A stretch of DNA of 38,840 nt, taken from assembly GCA_002721675.1 (NCBI GenBank), contig PBLC01000004.1, positions 1 through 38,840 on the forward strand, written 5' to 3'. Below, in pieces: positions 8,535 to 19,929 of this stretch. The DNA is from Chloroflexota bacterium. Its GTDB lineage: Bacteria > Chloroflexota > Dehalococcoidia > Lucifugimonadales > Lucifugimonadaceae. Both the position numbers and the translations under genes were made by a program. The notes beneath the pieces are model-generated. The model saw nothing but the letters and a program-made list of their open reading frames with translations, was not told where the DNA came from and made no database searches. Each line of letters starts with the position of its first letter. The first letter of the stretch is position 1.

Positions 8535-9265
8535 CTTTTCTTATATTCTTCGTAAGTTTTTTCATCTGGCGGATAATATTTTCCAGGAGATAAACTTTCT
8601 TCAGACAACTTATTTTTTATCCACTCTTCTAATTTGTCATATTCAATTGCAGCATCTGCAACCTCCTTGCATATCAAGCGCGGAATAACAACGACACCAT
8701 CGTCGTCAGCTACTATATAATCTCCAGGCATGACTAAGATCCCATCTACTTTTACTGGTTCATTAGTCGCGCAAGGAGTGCCAATCATAGTACCTAAATT
8801 AGATGTTTTCCCATAAGCCCATATACGAATATTATATTTCTCAACCGAGCCCATATCCCTAACTCCACCGTCACACACCAATCCATCAATACCTTTTTGC
8901 TTCAACCTCAAAAATTTTATATCTCCACCAATTGACATCATGCTTGTTTCCATAGAATCCATCACAATCACGTCACCTGGGCCTGCAATTTCAAAAGCAG
9001 CATATTCTGGTGATTTCTCATTTTTTGGCTTGATCTCATCAAAATCAGGTCTTGCTGGTAAATATCTTACTGTTATCGCTCGCGCAACAAGTCTATTCCC
9101 ATCATTCAGAGGCTTAACATTATTCATAAGAACATATCTAGGGTTATACCCAAATTGTCGTGCCATTACATCAACAAATGCAGACGTGTTGATTGACTTC
9201 AACTTATTTCTTATTTTTTTATTTAGTCTATGAGAAGGAGTTTTATTTATTTTTTTATTTGTCAT
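8528..9265 (-). CDS. RraA-like / HMG aldolase family protein
   Basis: Belongs to the RraA-like family, which includes 4-hydroxy-4-methyl-2-oxoglutarate aldolases and related decarboxylases. Typical pieces: GPGDVIVMDSMET, the GLVCDGGVRDM loop with the substrate Arg and metal Asp, GTPCATNEPVKVDG, and VMPGDYIVADDDGVVVIP. I place the start at ATG 9263-9265, because GGGAGG lies four bases upstream. An earlier in-frame GTG (9278) or ATG (9275) would add four or five residues but has no such site. It overlaps the end of the SDR gene by 11 bases, so the two are co-translated, and it overlaps the convergent MBL gene by 7 bases at the other end. Likely catabolic aldolase; substrate unknown. Confidence 0.82.
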   Translation of the reverse strand: MTNKKINKTPSHRLNKKIRNKLKSINTSAFVDVMARQFGYNPRYVLMNNVKPLNDGNRLVARAITVRYLPARPDFDEIKPKNEKSPEYAAFEIAGPGDVIVMDSMETSMMSIGGDIKFLRLKQKGIDGLVCDGGVRDMGSVEKYNIRIWAYGKTSNLGTMIGTPCATNEPVKVDGILVMPGDYIVADDDGVVVIPRLICKEVADAAIEYDKLEEWIKNKLSEESLSPGKYYPPDEKTYEEYKKSQ

Positions 9266-10043
9266 CAGGCCTCCCATCACCTAGCCCAGTAGCTATCATG
9301 CCTCCATCAACCAAAATCGTCTCTCCGTTAACATATTCCCCCATTTTTGAAGATAAAAATACTACTGCATTAGCAATATCACTTGGAAGGCCTTGTCTTC
9401 CAGACGGAAACCACGGCATATTTATTGCTTCCGGCTCAATTCTATCGTCATCAGGGATAGTGTTATTTATTGCCCCTGGCGCAATACAATTAGAATTAAT
9501 ACCTGTGCCTGCTAAATCAGCAGCTAAGCCTTTGACCATTCTTCTTATCCCCATCTTTGCAATGCCATAAGGAGTCCAATCTTTAGCAGCCCTAAAAGAA
9601 TGGACACTAGATATACAAATTAAAGAACCTTGAATGCTACGCTTAACCATCTCTTTTGAAGCCTTTTGGCATGCAAAGAAGTAACCTTTAAGAGAAAGAT
9701 CCATCATATAATCCCACCACTCTTCATCAATCTCATTAAAAGGCTTAAGTTGTGGTTGCATAATAGCATTGTTGACCAAAACATCAATCGATCCATGAGA
9801 ATCTAAAAATTCGTCAACCATTGAGTCAATATTATTTTTTTTACTTACATCAAATATATGAGATGAGCATTTCCTGCCTAATGATTCTACTAAATTAATA
9901 GTTTTCTGAGTTTCTTCGTCATCAATATAATCGTTTACACCTACATCTGCCCCTTCCATTGCTACTTTATATGCAATTCCTCTTCCAATTCCTTTTCTTG
10001 CGCCAGTTACTAGGACTTTTTTTCCATCTAATAATCCCAACAC
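9255..10043 (-). CDS. Short-chain dehydrogenase/reductase (SDR)
   Basis: 262 residues, classical SDR. The cofactor motif is TGARKGIG at 13-20, the structural NNA is at 91-93 (NNAIM rather than NNAG), and the catalytic residues are Ser146, Tyr159 and Lys163 in PYGIAK. NCIAPGAINN follows, and the C-terminal VNGETILVDGGM is standard. It oxidises or reduces an alcohol or ketone with NAD(P). The start is GTG (10041-10043) or the adjacent TTG (10038-10040); the AAAGGAG site lies three bases from GTG and six from TTG, so TTG is at least as likely. It follows the nuclease gene by 15 bases and runs into the RraA-like gene with an 11-base overlap, suggesting a two-enzyme catabolic step. Confidence 0.88.
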   Translation of the reverse strand: MLGLLDGKKVLVTGARKGIGRGIAYKVAMEGADVGVNDYIDDEETQKTINLVESLGRKCSSHIFDVSKKNNIDSMVDEFLDSHGSIDVLVNNAIMQPQLKPFNEIDEEWWDYMMDLSLKGYFFACQKASKEMVKRSIQGSLICISSVHSFRAAKDWTPYGIAKMGIRRMVKGLAADLAGTGINSNCIAPGAINNTIPDDDRIEPEAINMPWFPSGRQGLPSDIANAVVFLSSKMGEYVNGETILVDGGMIATGLGDGRPDDK

Positions 10044-10058
10044 AATCTCCTTTCTAAT

Positions 10059-10835
10059 TTATTTTGAACTCTCTCCATACGGACAAATATTCCAATAAAA
10101 ACACCATTTCTTAGAACAGTACCAACTTCCTTCAGGGGCAGGCAAGAATACTCTTTTTCTTATAGCCCCGCTAACACTCCTAATTTTCTGAGAAACAGAA
10201 CTGATTGAAAGTTCACTTACTTCATGAACTATTAAATCAGATTTTGGCTCTTTTGTATCTACAACTTGAGCAATAGCAATTTTATTTATATTTGCAATCT
10301 TTGAATATGTAACTAATTGAATATCTCTACTGAGATCAATTGCTCGGTTTTGAGATCTAACTTTAGTATCTACAATCATGTTGTCTTCTGTAATTAAGTC
10401 TGCAAAACCTATAACAGGAACTTGCATACCCATATCTCCAATTAGTTTTACCTGAATAGACTCTTCAGACTTAGGTACAAGACTTTTCCCATGTGTTTCG
10501 TGATAAAGACTTGAAAGCCTAGAAACAGTATCTCTGCTTTCAGCTTTTGAAACATCTAACTGGACTTCATCCACTAATTCATCATGCTGAACAATGGCCA
10601 AATCTATGAAATCTTGGGGCTTCATGCCAATTCTATTTGAAGCCTTAATTAGGAAATGGCCATTTGCAGCTTTATCAACACTTAGCCCTCTTAACATAGC
10701 ACCATTAAGCGGAGGTTTAATTTCTTCAATGTATCGAAAATAATATTTCATTCCGCATTGTAGATAAGTTCTAATCTGACTTACAGATATATGATCTGGA
10801 AGTAATATATTTCTTTTATTTTTTTTCTCTTCTAT
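10059..10835 (-). CDS. RecB/Cas4-like PD-(D/E)XK nuclease with four-cysteine (Fe-S type) signature; non-canonical start proposed
   Basis: The core shows the PD-(D/E)XK pattern: Gly-x-x-Asp in VIGFADLI (Asp118 counted from the ATG at 10749-10751), Asp128-x-Lys130 in IVDTKV, and Gln145-x3-Tyr149. The tail has Cys212, Cys217 and Cys223. The frame stays open for 31 codons upstream of that ATG and reads DHISVSQIRTYLQC then GMKYYFRYIEE. This is the usual family N-terminus (S-x-S-x-[LI]-x-x-Y-x-x-C) and supplies the first cysteine of the cluster at 10755-10757. No ATG, GTG or TTG exists there in frame. The most likely start is ATA at 10833-10835, with AGAGAG five bases upstream, giving 258 residues. 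The antiporter stop lies nine bases upstream in the same frame. Related proteins process DNA ends; there are no CRISPR genes here. Confidence 0.75.
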   Translation of the reverse strand: MEEKKNKRNILLPDHISVSQIRTYLQCGMKYYFRYIEEIKPPLNGAMLRGLSVDKAANGHFLIKASNRIGMKPQDFIDLAIVQHDELVDEVQLDVSKAESRDTVSRLSSLYHETHGKSLVPKSEESIQVKLIGDMGMQVPVIGFADLITEDNMIVDTKVRSQNRAIDLSRDIQLVTYSKIANINKIAIAQVVDTKEPKSDLIVHEVSELSISSVSQKIRSVSGAIRKRVFLPAPEGSWYCSKKWCFYWNICPYGESSK

Positions 10836-10844
10836 ATTAACTCT

Positions 10845-12140
10845 CTATTTAGGGACCTTATTTTTTCTATAACTTTTTTCTAACATAATTGGCGCTAATA
10901 TTGTCGTAACAATCGTCATTACTATTGTTACTCCAAAAATAGTCTGAGAGATTACTCCGGTTGCTAAACCAATTCCACCAATAATAAGGGCCACCTCACC
11001 CCTTGGCATCATTCCAACTCCAATTCTCCATGAATTTTCTCTGTCGAAACCAGAAATAAGTGCTGGGATTCCTGACCCAATAATCTTACTAATAATTCCA
11101 AAAATCGTAAGTACAAGAGCAAACAACAAGGTAGCGGTTAGCGAATCTGATCCAAATATAGCTTGAAGATTTACCTGCATACCAATAACGGTAAAAAAAA
11201 CTGGAACAACAAAACCATTTATTTTTTGTATTGGTTCTTCGATTTCTTTAAATAAAATTGTTCCCGATAATGCAAGGCCCAATGAATATGCACCGATAAT
11301 CATTGCTAATCCAAAATATTTTTCAGCTACCCCTGAAACTAAAAAGGCAAGGCCAAGTGCTATGCATAAATGAATACTTGGCTCTTTATAGAACCCCTTT
11401 TTTGTACCCAAATTCATAATAAAACTTGAAATCCAAGGTGAAGCCCAACTTCCGAGTATTGTCAGGACTAATAAAAAAGATATGGCTTTAACTGAAATCC
11501 ATAAAATACCTATCCCAGAAACAACTCCAGTAGTCTCAATCCCTACGATTACTGCCAATATTAGTATCCCCAATACATCATCTACTACAGCACCACCTAA
11601 AATAGTAACCCCTACAGAGGAATTCAATTTTCCTAAATCTCCTAAAACTCTGGCTGTTATCCCAACAGATGTAGCGGTCATCATAGCACCCACAAAAAGT
11701 CCCGGGATAAGGCTCTGGATTGACTGGAAGGAAGCAAATCCAAACATTAATGTAGCCAATAAACCTAAAATAAAGGGTAGAAGCACTCCTCCTATTGCCA
11801 CAAAACTAGCAGACCCTATATTTTCAAAGAATCTCTTTTTGTTGGTCTCTAATCCTGCTTCAAATAGAAGAATTACTGCACCAACATTTGCTAAAAAATA
11901 TAGAGATTGAGAAACAGGTATTACAGAATCGTGGCCTACATCTATAAACGGGCCAAAATTTCCTATTGAAAGCCCCCCTAAAGCGTATGGGCCAATTAAA
12001 ATACCAGCCCCAAGTTCTCCAATTACCCTAGGAAGCCTTAAATATCTATAAAAAAATTCTCCTAAAATTTTAGCGCAAATAAGAATCACTGAAAGTAATA
12101 TTATTGATTCTGCTACTAAGGCAAGAGGGGAATCATGCAT
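10845..12140 (-). CDS. CPA2-family cation:proton antiporter (Kef/NapA type)
   Basis: 431 residues with about 12-13 membrane helices and no C-terminal TrkA domain, so it is an NapA-like short form rather than a full Kef channel. Family marks: LPRVIGELGAGILIGPYALG near 36-55, LLFEAGLE at 91-98, TATSVGITARVLGDLGKL at 155-172, and the ion-binding pair Asp187-Asp188 in GGAVVDDVLGI. The double Asp is typical of electrogenic Na+/H+ exchange. A good AGAGG site lies six bases before the ATG. It sits between the di-haem lipoprotein and the nuclease, 22 and 9 bases away. Likely role: sodium and pH balance at the cytoplasmic membrane, which fits a marine organism. Confidence 0.88.
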   Translation of the reverse strand: MHDSPLALVAESIILLSVILICAKILGEFFYRYLRLPRVIGELGAGILIGPYALGGLSIGNFGPFIDVGHDSVIPVSQSLYFLANVGAVILLFEAGLETNKKRFFENIGSASFVAIGGVLLPFILGLLATLMFGFASFQSIQSLIPGLFVGAMMTATSVGITARVLGDLGKLNSSVGVTILGGAVVDDVLGILILAVIVGIETTGVVSGIGILWISVKAISFLLVLTILGSWASPWISSFIMNLGTKKGFYKEPSIHLCIALGLAFLVSGVAEKYFGLAMIIGAYSLGLALSGTILFKEIEEPIQKINGFVVPVFFTVIGMQVNLQAIFGSDSLTATLLFALVLTIFGIISKIIGSGIPALISGFDRENSWRIGVGMMPRGEVALIIGGIGLATGVISQTIFGVTIVMTIVTTILAPIMLEKSYRKNKVPK

Positions 12141-18218: not shown

Positions 18219-19919
18219 TTATATTAACTTAGATAATTCTTTGTTTATATCTTTAATCTTTACCATCTTAAAATCTTCTTTACCTCTCTCTAAAATCTCA
18301 ACTTCAGAATTTTCTAGTGATCTTTTACTTATTACAATCCTTACAGGAACACCTGATAATTCATAATCACTAAATTTAACACCTGGGCCTTCATCTCTAT
18401 CATCAAAAAGAACATCGTAATCTGAATTAATTAAATCAGAATAAACACTATTAGATACTTCTTTCACTTCTGTGTTATCAGAGTTCAAATTTACAAGATA
18501 CACCTGAAAAGGAGATATATTTTTATCTAAAACTAATTCTTTCTCACTTGAATTTGCTTCAATTACTGCGGCAAGTAACCTTCCAACTCCAATGCCATAG
18601 CAACCCATTTCTACACTCTTTTGCTTGCCTTCTGTATCACTAAAATTTAAACCCATCTTTTGACTATATGTATCCCCTAACTTAAATATATGCCCCACTT
18701 CTATTCCCTTGTATTCATTCATGCCTTTACATTTGCTTTCATCGCAATCTACTGAGAGGTCCCCTTTCTTGGCTTTGGCTATATCCTCATAATGCTTAAT
18801 ATTGAATTCTTTGCTAGGTGAAATTCCTTCAATATGAAAATTATTTCTATTTGAACCAACTATGTAATCCGCTTTTAAGTTAATTGAATCATCAACTATT
18901 AAATCAAAATCATTATTAATTGGTGATATAAAACCTGGAACTAACCCTAATTGAATTATTTCATCATTATCTGCCAATCTCACATCATCACCTAATAGGT
19001 TCCTTAATTTAGTTTCATTTACTTCAAGATCTCCGGCTAGTGAAACTAAAATTGGCTTTTTGCCGGAGAAATAAACCATTGTTTTTATGAAATAATGAGC
19101 ATCTAAACTAAAAAAATTGGTTAAATCCTGAATTGATTTAATATTTGGAGTCTCTTTTTCTGATTTTTCCATGAAATTTTCACTATCATTCTTAATTATT
19201 TTTTTGAATTCAGCTTTTTCTTCATTGGCGGCATATAAACATTCATCGCATTTTAGAATTGTATCTTCTCCATTTTCTGCTATAGAAATAAATTCAGATG
19301 ACACTTTACCTCCTATTGCTCCACTATCAGCAGCAACTTTTATCACATCAATTCCACACCTATTAAAAATATTAAAATATGCTTTAGAAAATTCCTCATA
19401 TACTTCATCGAGGCTCTCTTGATTTGAGTGAAAACTATAAGCGTCTTTCATTTCGAATTCTCTAACCCTTAAGAGGCCGCCTCTAGGTCTAGTCTCATCT
19501 CTAAATTTAGTTTGTATATGAAACAAAGAAAAAGGCATATCTCTATAACTATTCACTTCACTTCTAACCATGGATATTACTGATTCTTCATGGGTAGGCG
19601 CAATTATCATAATTTTATCTCTTCTATCTGTAAATCTAGCTAAAGGGGGTATAAAAGAATCAATACGGCCACTTTCTTCCCATATGTCCGAAGGCTGAAT
19701 CACTGGAAAATTTGCCTCATAACAATCAATCGAATTCATTTCAGACCTAATTATATCTTTAATTTTTTCAATTACTCTCCAACCAATAGGAGTAAAACTA
19801 AATATTCCAGCACCTAACTGACTAATATAACCCGACCTAATTAATAGCCTGTGACTAAGCATTTCTGATTCATCAGAAATATTTCTTGAAGTAGACCAAT
19901 AATATTTTGAAAGTTTAAT
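18219..19919 (-). CDS. proS: Prolyl-tRNA synthetase, proposed ATT start
   Basis: Bacterial-type class II synthetase that charges tRNA-Pro. Motif 2 (FRDETRPRGGLLRVREFEMKD), the editing-domain region and motif 3 (GCYGIGVGRLLAA) are present. The first ATG (19860-19862) would begin at MLSHRLLIRSGY and drop the family N-terminus. The frame continues upstream as KLSKYYWSTSRN then ISDESE with no ATG, GTG or TTG. It reaches ATT at 19917-19919, four bases after a perfect AGGAGG. Starting there gives 566 residues, the usual length, so I take ATT as the start. It is last in the operon, 18 bases after ispG and before the terminator. Confidence 0.92.
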   Translation of the reverse strand: MKLSKYYWSTSRNISDESEMLSHRLLIRSGYISQLGAGIFSFTPIGWRVIEKIKDIIRSEMNSIDCYEANFPVIQPSDIWEESGRIDSFIPPLARFTDRRDKIMIIAPTHEESVISMVRSEVNSYRDMPFSLFHIQTKFRDETRPRGGLLRVREFEMKDAYSFHSNQESLDEVYEEFSKAYFNIFNRCGIDVIKVAADSGAIGGKVSSEFISIAENGEDTILKCDECLYAANEEKAEFKKIIKNDSENFMEKSEKETPNIKSIQDLTNFFSLDAHYFIKTMVYFSGKKPILVSLAGDLEVNETKLRNLLGDDVRLADNDEIIQLGLVPGFISPINNDFDLIVDDSINLKADYIVGSNRNNFHIEGISPSKEFNIKHYEDIAKAKKGDLSVDCDESKCKGMNEYKGIEVGHIFKLGDTYSQKMGLNFSDTEGKQKSVEMGCYGIGVGRLLAAVIEANSSEKELVLDKNISPFQVYLVNLNSDNTEVKEVSNSVYSDLINSDYDVLFDDRDEGPGVKFSDYELSGVPVRIVISKRSLENSEVEILERGKEDFKMVKIKDINKELSKLI

Positions 19920-19923
19920 TTTT

Positions 19924-19929
19924 CCTCCT
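19924..19929 (-). promoter_or_regulatory. Ribosome binding site that fixes the ATT start of proS
   Basis: AGGAGG on the minus strand, four bases upstream of ATT at 19917-19919. The next in-frame ATG is about 60 bases further on and has no comparable site. Confidence 0.75.

Follow-up and report, generated by a model that had tools for sequence, protein, structure and literature searches.

The nuclease gene that directly follows an antiporter gene in this Chloroflexota genome most likely begins, on the evidence of its sequence and that of its relatives, at an AUA codon (positions 10833-10835). The full account that we favour, to which we assign a probability of about 0.8, is that an intact Cas4-like (RecB-clade) exonuclease starts at this AUA, would be translated by re-initiation coupled to the antiporter at a low, IF3-sensitive level, and is one instance of a start type that recurs in the lineage. 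The window, meaning the whole analysed stretch of 38,840 nucleotides, belongs to a genome (G000) of 0.98 Mb, 77% complete and with 33% GC, whose small size and base composition would fit the streamlined marine SAR202 bacteria (PMC11994032). G001-G009 denote its relatives within the genus, and G067 a genome from another genus of the family. All genomes compared are metagenome assemblies, and the comparison of nuclease start codons covers six species. Coordinates refer to the window and its features lie on the minus strand unless a locus is named.

The Cas4-like/RecE-like PD-(D/E)XK nuclease occupies 10059..10835, 258 codons from the proposed AUA to the stop TAA at 10059-10061, within an open frame (10059-10844) that begins directly after the antiporter stop TAG (10845-10847). 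The codons after this TAG read AGA GTT AAT ATA GAA GAG AAA AAA AAT AAA AGA AAT ATA TTA CTT CCA GAT CAT ATA TCT ... TGC GGA ATG. The proposed start ATA, followed by GAA, is codon 4 of the frame, and a second in-frame ATA (10806-10808) is codon 13, nine codons further downstream. A sequence-only reading of this DNA had claimed that the conserved N-terminus is preceded by no standard start, that the TAG stands nine bases before the ATA in a frame shared with the antiporter, and that a run of eight A lies at 10819-10826; every coordinate of this description was confirmed in G000, where the frame stays open for 31 codons up to the first ATG (10749-10751) and none of the 31 is ATG, GTG or TTG. NCBI table 11 allows ATA, ATT, ATC and CTG as starts, and ordinary gene callers accept ATG, GTG and TTG only. 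The lack of a canonical start over 31 codons is by itself not rare by chance; it gains meaning because it recurs in three other species and because the stretch carries protein sequence under purifying selection.

The pattern of substitution indicates that the codons following the candidate start, up to the first ATG (10749..10832, the ATG codon included), are translated. In the four species that have no canonical start, 14/14 nucleotide variants in codons 14-29 (LLPDHISVSQIRTYLQ) are synonymous, against 23% expected (binomial P 1.1e-9, a guide, with the variants taken as independent), as are 5/5 in the codons for LLPDH alone (P 5e-4). The three codons between TAG and ATA hold 2 variants, both of them replacements. 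Since codons 14-29 vary only synonymously, translation should begin at or before codon 13. Codons 10-11 also show synonymous changes (AAA/AAG, AGA/CGC), with little power. Across the gene body, the three closest species give dN of 0.02-0.05 and dS of 0.65-1.1, for a dN/dS of about 0.03-0.08.

Near the 5' end of the frame, the first ATG is the only canonical start, and initiation there would make the upstream conservation incidental and the protein one without its first Cys. The synonymous pattern argues strongly against this, as does the position of the domain: PF12705 (PDDEXK_1) matches over its full profile (1-247, E 1.7e-14) from open-frame residue 18, so that the first ATG, residue 32, falls inside the domain, 14 residues after its beginning. 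In addition, homologues with canonical starts all begin upstream, and all homologues seen, including two phage proteins with canonical starts, contain the first Cys; we therefore consider a start at the first ATG highly improbable. The upstream Cys (Cys30, 10755-10757) had been read as completing a four-Cys set, and indeed all four are invariant in eight homologues, the two phage proteins included, with the C-terminal three in 10083..10118 (open-frame Cys243, 10116-10118; Cys248, 10101-10103; Cys254, 10083-10085). None of the homologues seen starts at the downstream Met without the first Cys. The predicted nuclease peptide upstream of the first canonical Met is LLPDHISVSQIR.

From the antiporter stop through codon 13, G000 offers two near-cognate codons and no others, the ATAs at codons 4 and 13. 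A weak Shine-Dalgarno (SD)-like element, GAGAG (10841..10845), which overlaps the antiporter stop, lies five bases before the first ATA. In three species it pairs with the anti-SD at -3.0 kcal/mol, compared with medians of -0.6 kcal/mol for random positions of the window and -2.3 kcal/mol for the first canonical starts of G000. By this measure the first ATA outscores the other in-frame candidates in both G000 and G004 (-3.0 kcal/mol). In G001 the best candidate is an ATC preceded by GGGAG (-6.8), and the spacing is the same in GAGAG-TTAAT-ATA (G000) and GGGAG-TTTAA-ATC (G001). We take AUA, or AUC in G001, as the start because the candidates are few, the second ATA is replaced by TTC in G001, the SD-like pairing is best at this place in G000, G004 and G001 and the spacing matches.

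The second ATA would give a product beginning M-LLPDHISVSQ... that retains the family domain and Cys30, and it is kept in G000, G008 and G004. In G008 its SD-like energy (-2.9, shared by a downstream CTG) practically equals the -3.0 of the first ATA. Against it stand the TTC in G001, the weak pairing in G000 (-0.9) and the absence of pairing in G004 (+1.6), and the synonymous changes at codons 10-11 suggest earlier initiation, although with little power. Initiation at the second ATA is thus unlikely in our judgement.

The nuclease gene occurs in 6/10 genus genomes, all ten of which are incomplete, and in 0/240 other genomes searched in the order. The two sister genomes were deposited separately (G008 matches JAAZYI010000020 and G004 PBNX01000012); G001 matches PACM01000025. 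The codon at 10833-10835 was to be compared in sister genomes, and the same ATA follows the same antiporter TAG in both of them: G008 and G004 (90% identity) read TAG AGA GTT GAT/AAA ATA GAA and are likewise without a canonical start. The codon before the ATA varies among G000, G008 and G004 (AAT/GAT/AAA), and ATA GAA is constant. The more distant G001 (72% identity) reads GGGAG TTTAA ATC GAT AGA ATA AAA AAA AAT and also has no usable canonical start; a TAA two codons after its in-frame upstream ATG separates that ATG from the nuclease, its counterpart of ATA GAA runs into a TAA, and its sequence has scattered Ns. Hence a near-cognate codon stands at one place in four species, as ATA in three and, at the SD-matched place, as ATC in the fourth. 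With G001 included, what is conserved is the start position and the codon class, not the identical codon; the class appears constant in that ATA and ATC both differ from AUG at the third base only.

G003 and G002 (53% identity) serve as the outgroup and have ATG AAG AAA AAA GAA GAT AAA within a few codons of the same place. The AUA start suggested by the sequence-only reading is supported by its retention in three species, by SD-like pairing that in G000 and G004 exceeds that of every other in-frame candidate, and by the ATG that the outgroup carries at about the same place. The further suggestion of a mutated ATG holds in part: the outgroup does have ATG, but the substitution is an old one that several species share, and is no defect of G000.

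The same comparison bears on two routes to an antiporter-nuclease fusion: reading through the antiporter stop TAG, and frameshifting in the A run. The nuclease does lie in the antiporter frame in G000, G008 and G004, with no further stop after the TAG, but the chance of a shared frame is one in three. The nuclease of G001 is not in the antiporter frame and has an in-frame TAA just upstream, and in G003 and G002 the two are separate genes, with a gap of 60-70 bases and an ATG. As for slippage, the run of eight A is present in G008 and broken in G004; it is not conserved, no role for it is supported, and no upstream frame offers a start. Readthrough and slippage, both raised in the sequence-only reading, can be set aside as barely credible.

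Decay of the gene, or a missing ATG produced by an assembly error in G000, is similarly remote. At one site or more, G000 probably does contain a wrong base or a nonsense change (the in-frame TAG in glyS); nevertheless, the start is likewise missing in three other assemblies, and strong purifying selection acts over the whole gene (dN about 0.05 versus dS 0.65-1.1), with only synonymous changes at the N-terminus.

The protein itself appears intact. The PD-(D/E)XK motif (D149, D159xK161 in the open frame) and the QxxxY motif that follows the active site (Q176...Y180) are invariant, PF12705 scores above its cut-off, and a fold search agrees, with matches to ACE1 (9iab, E 1.5e-5), Cas4 SSO0001 (4ic1, E 2.6e-4), RecE, lambda exonuclease and a putative exonuclease (3l0a); the model behind these matches has a mean pLDDT of 71, a medium confidence, with values below 50 in the Cys regions. 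The protein also matches PHROG exonuclease families, and a search of solved structures by sequence with the nuclease profile gave no match. Probably, as judged from this model and the motifs, the nuclease is an exonuclease of the RecE/lambda-exonuclease/Cas4 group, with its one N-terminal and three C-terminal Cys forming a putative 4Fe-4S cluster.

With Cas4 and ACE1 the nuclease shares the fold match, the PD-(D/E)XK and QxxxY motifs and the four Cys, but no cas or Argonaute gene was seen among its neighbours. Assignment to CRISPR Cas4 proper was rejected, with a score of 32.9 for the cas4 NCBIfam model against a cut-off of 65 and with an antiporter, an SDR and an RraA-like gene as neighbours, the search for cas genes being confined to this neighbourhood. 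Closer relatives are RecE-like/RecB-like exonucleases of phages (IMG/VR L012 and L013), which show 32-33% identity over nearly the whole protein, the same four Cys and a common C-terminal APEGSWYCSxKWCxYWNIC; a tblastn search of phage records with the nuclease gave no match. The L012 protein belongs to a PHROG exonuclease family and adjoins a RecT-like gene. Both phage copies have canonical starts and are paired with RecT-like genes, whereas the chromosomal nuclease has no RecT beside it and sits between the antiporter and the SDR.

The upstream gene (10845..12140) is a Na+/H+ antiporter (PF00999, E 4.6e-61) and is the same in all six species; downstream lies a short-chain dehydrogenase (SDR; 9255..10043, PF13561). 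The order antiporter-nuclease-SDR-RraA-like is also found in G001, G003 and G002, where the gene after the SDR is one that we take, from its sequence, to be RraA-like.

This arrangement suggests how the start might be used. The 30S subunits would end translation of the antiporter nine bases upstream and then re-initiate at AUA or AUC, with the GAGAG/GGGAG element holding the 30S while fMet-tRNA is placed on the codon. Because IF3 would destabilise such near-cognate start complexes, synthesis of the nuclease would stay low, respond to IF3 and keep pace with that of the antiporter. Re-initiation by 30S subunits just past a stop is possible and is opposed by IF3 (PMC2268962), and near-cognate starts in general show lower initiation, are sensed by IF3 and are aided by strong SDs (PMC13009471, PMC5472188).

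Such starts are already known from other bacteria, and their usual interpretation is that they hold expression low via IF3. In Staphylococcus aureus, infC and ccpN have AUA starts with extended SDs and reduced efficiency, and cvfC1 has AUU (PMC13009471); in Streptomyces, sigR has a GTC start repressed by IF3 and infC an ATC, and in Escherichia coli, infC and pcnB start at AUU (PMC5472188). The S. aureus genes resemble those of our lineage in that conserved AUA or AUU replaces AUG, with infC at AUA in S. aureus and at AUA/AUC in most infC genes read in this family, but they have extended strong SDs and proof by Ribo-Ret, in contrast to the nuclease, which has a weak SD-like element and a start proposed from sequence; moreover, the nuclease, proS and the permease are different genes from the S. 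aureus set. The GTC/GTT class of sigR is kept across related species, as is the ATA/ATC of the nuclease. IF3 control is demonstrated for infC and sigR and would apply to the nuclease by analogy. In the open-access literature we found no report of such starts in these bacteria and nothing relevant on ACG starts in bacteria or on SAR202 start codons. The type of start is already known, and the nuclease, proS and the MFS transporter are new cases of it.

We surveyed 564 kb of G000, 315 kb of G008, 385 kb of G003 and 330 kb of G067 for homology upstream of the first canonical start. By eye, five or six of the 537 frames in the G000 sample have candidate near-cognate starts, or roughly 1%, a figure drawn from genomes of this lineage only; some flagged ORFs were dropped as having canonical starts, antisense frames or Ns.

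The best cases are proS, an MFS transporter and infC. The window holds another gene that lacks a canonical start, proS (proline-tRNA ligase, 18219..19919), which is predicted to begin at ATT (19917-19919) with an AGGAGG (19924..19929; -10.2 kcal/mol) four bases before it, 18 bases after the stop of an ispG-like gene. It matches the NF006625 equivalog at E 1e-194, with profile position 2 at residue 2 counted from the ATT, and has a predicted N-terminal peptide LSKYYWSTSR. The start is ATT in 8/10 genus species and ATG in two; in the other family members read, it is ATG or GTG in nearly all.

An MFS transporter on contig C9 of G000 (L039 17752-19032, minus strand; predicted peptide FFYGWK) is predicted to begin at ACG, 8 bases after the stop of an SDR-like gene, and GGAGG or GGGGG precedes the ACG by four bases in six species (G000, G006, G008, G007, G005 and G001). 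Variants in the codons for FYGWKIVGAGA are synonymous in 10/10 cases. G005 also has an in-frame ATG further upstream, G009 has the same ACG out of frame through an A run one base shorter, and G003 and G002 have ATC/ATT instead. The closeness of proS and the MFS gene to an upstream stop, shared with the nuclease, is not telling in a compact genome.

For infC, which is missing from the G000 assembly, the predicted start is AUA in 7/9 genus genomes (L020-L028) and TTG in G002 and G003, and it is AUA or AUC in most family members with a readable start (L176-L205). The species with an ATG in the nuclease are those with a TTG in infC, and this correlation was discarded, since infC AUA/AUC is common family-wide and the coincidence proves nothing. 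Two TauE/SafE-like permeases of G000 (L064 6753-7607 and L036 13128-13922, minus strand) have no usable ATG, GTG or TTG and are weaker cases: one has ATT or ATA in G000, ATT or TTA in G004 and ATG in five relatives, and the second has a CTG overlapping the upstream TGA. Also among the weaker cases, ATT is the apparent start of recF in two genera (G008, L078 17457-18596, plus strand; G067, L120 14862-16016, minus strand). Further candidates are an amidase (ATT) and an ABC ATPase (GGAGG-AATT-CTG) in G003 (L101 4372-5745 and 6878-7582, plus strand) and a methyltransferase without a canonical start in G067 (L112 9404-10579, plus strand).

Tentatively, and at slightly under even odds, we propose that the lineage holds a standing set of genes (infC, proS, MFS, nuclease, recF and permeases; roughly 1%) with species-conserved near-cognate starts, ACG among them, which would form an IF3-responsive regulon or reflect relaxed discrimination and would go unseen by standard callers. 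The start of the nuclease could also be non-regulatory, in a lineage that tolerates near-cognates and in which AUG drifts to AUA, AUU or ACG without selection for low expression; this alternative concerns the cause and not the start codon. It accords with the number of unrelated genes affected (infC, proS, MFS, a TauE permease and recF) and with codons that differ among relatives (AUA/AUC in the nuclease; ATG to ATA or TTA in TauE). On the other hand, the AUU of proS and the ACG of MFS are kept over many species and look selected, very strong SDs accompany both in G000, and the anticodon stem-loop of the initiator tRNA is the usual GGGCTCATAACCC where found, in 3/10 genomes, which are incomplete; an altered initiator tRNA as the cause is unsupported on the evidence of these three. 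We take drift seriously as an explanation, while judging it somewhat doubtful. The IF3 of G008 aligns over its full length with known IF3.

To our knowledge, starts outside AUG, GUG and UUG have been established for few bacterial genes, mostly in model organisms. Here several such starts, those of the genes for an aminoacyl-tRNA synthetase and a DNA nuclease among them, are conserved across species of an ocean lineage that has hardly been cultivated (SAR202 cultivation: PMC10444878). What is surprising is the number of genes that share near-cognate starts, proS among them, and an ACG conserved over six species. Callers limited to ATG, GTG and TTG would trim the first cluster Cys from the nuclease, the first 19 residues from proS and the start of the first membrane helix from the MFS transporter. 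Work in a reconstituted system showed that IF3 accepts no start codon unless its first two bases form Watson-Crick pairs (PMC10158994). The conserved ACG, mismatched at the second base, is hard to square with this result, and start-codon discrimination in the lineage is therefore directly testable.

Two further observations concern the G000 assembly. The glyS gene on contig C11 (L074 14592-15869, minus strand) has its in-frame TAG near the start and is intact in seven relatives; the TAG is probably an assembly error or a nonsense change. The same stretch, with an EamA/DMT-like permease frame that has no canonical start for 50 codons, occurs on contigs C7 and C12 (L037 838-1740 and L042 12151-13053), and is either a repeat or a duplicated assembly end.
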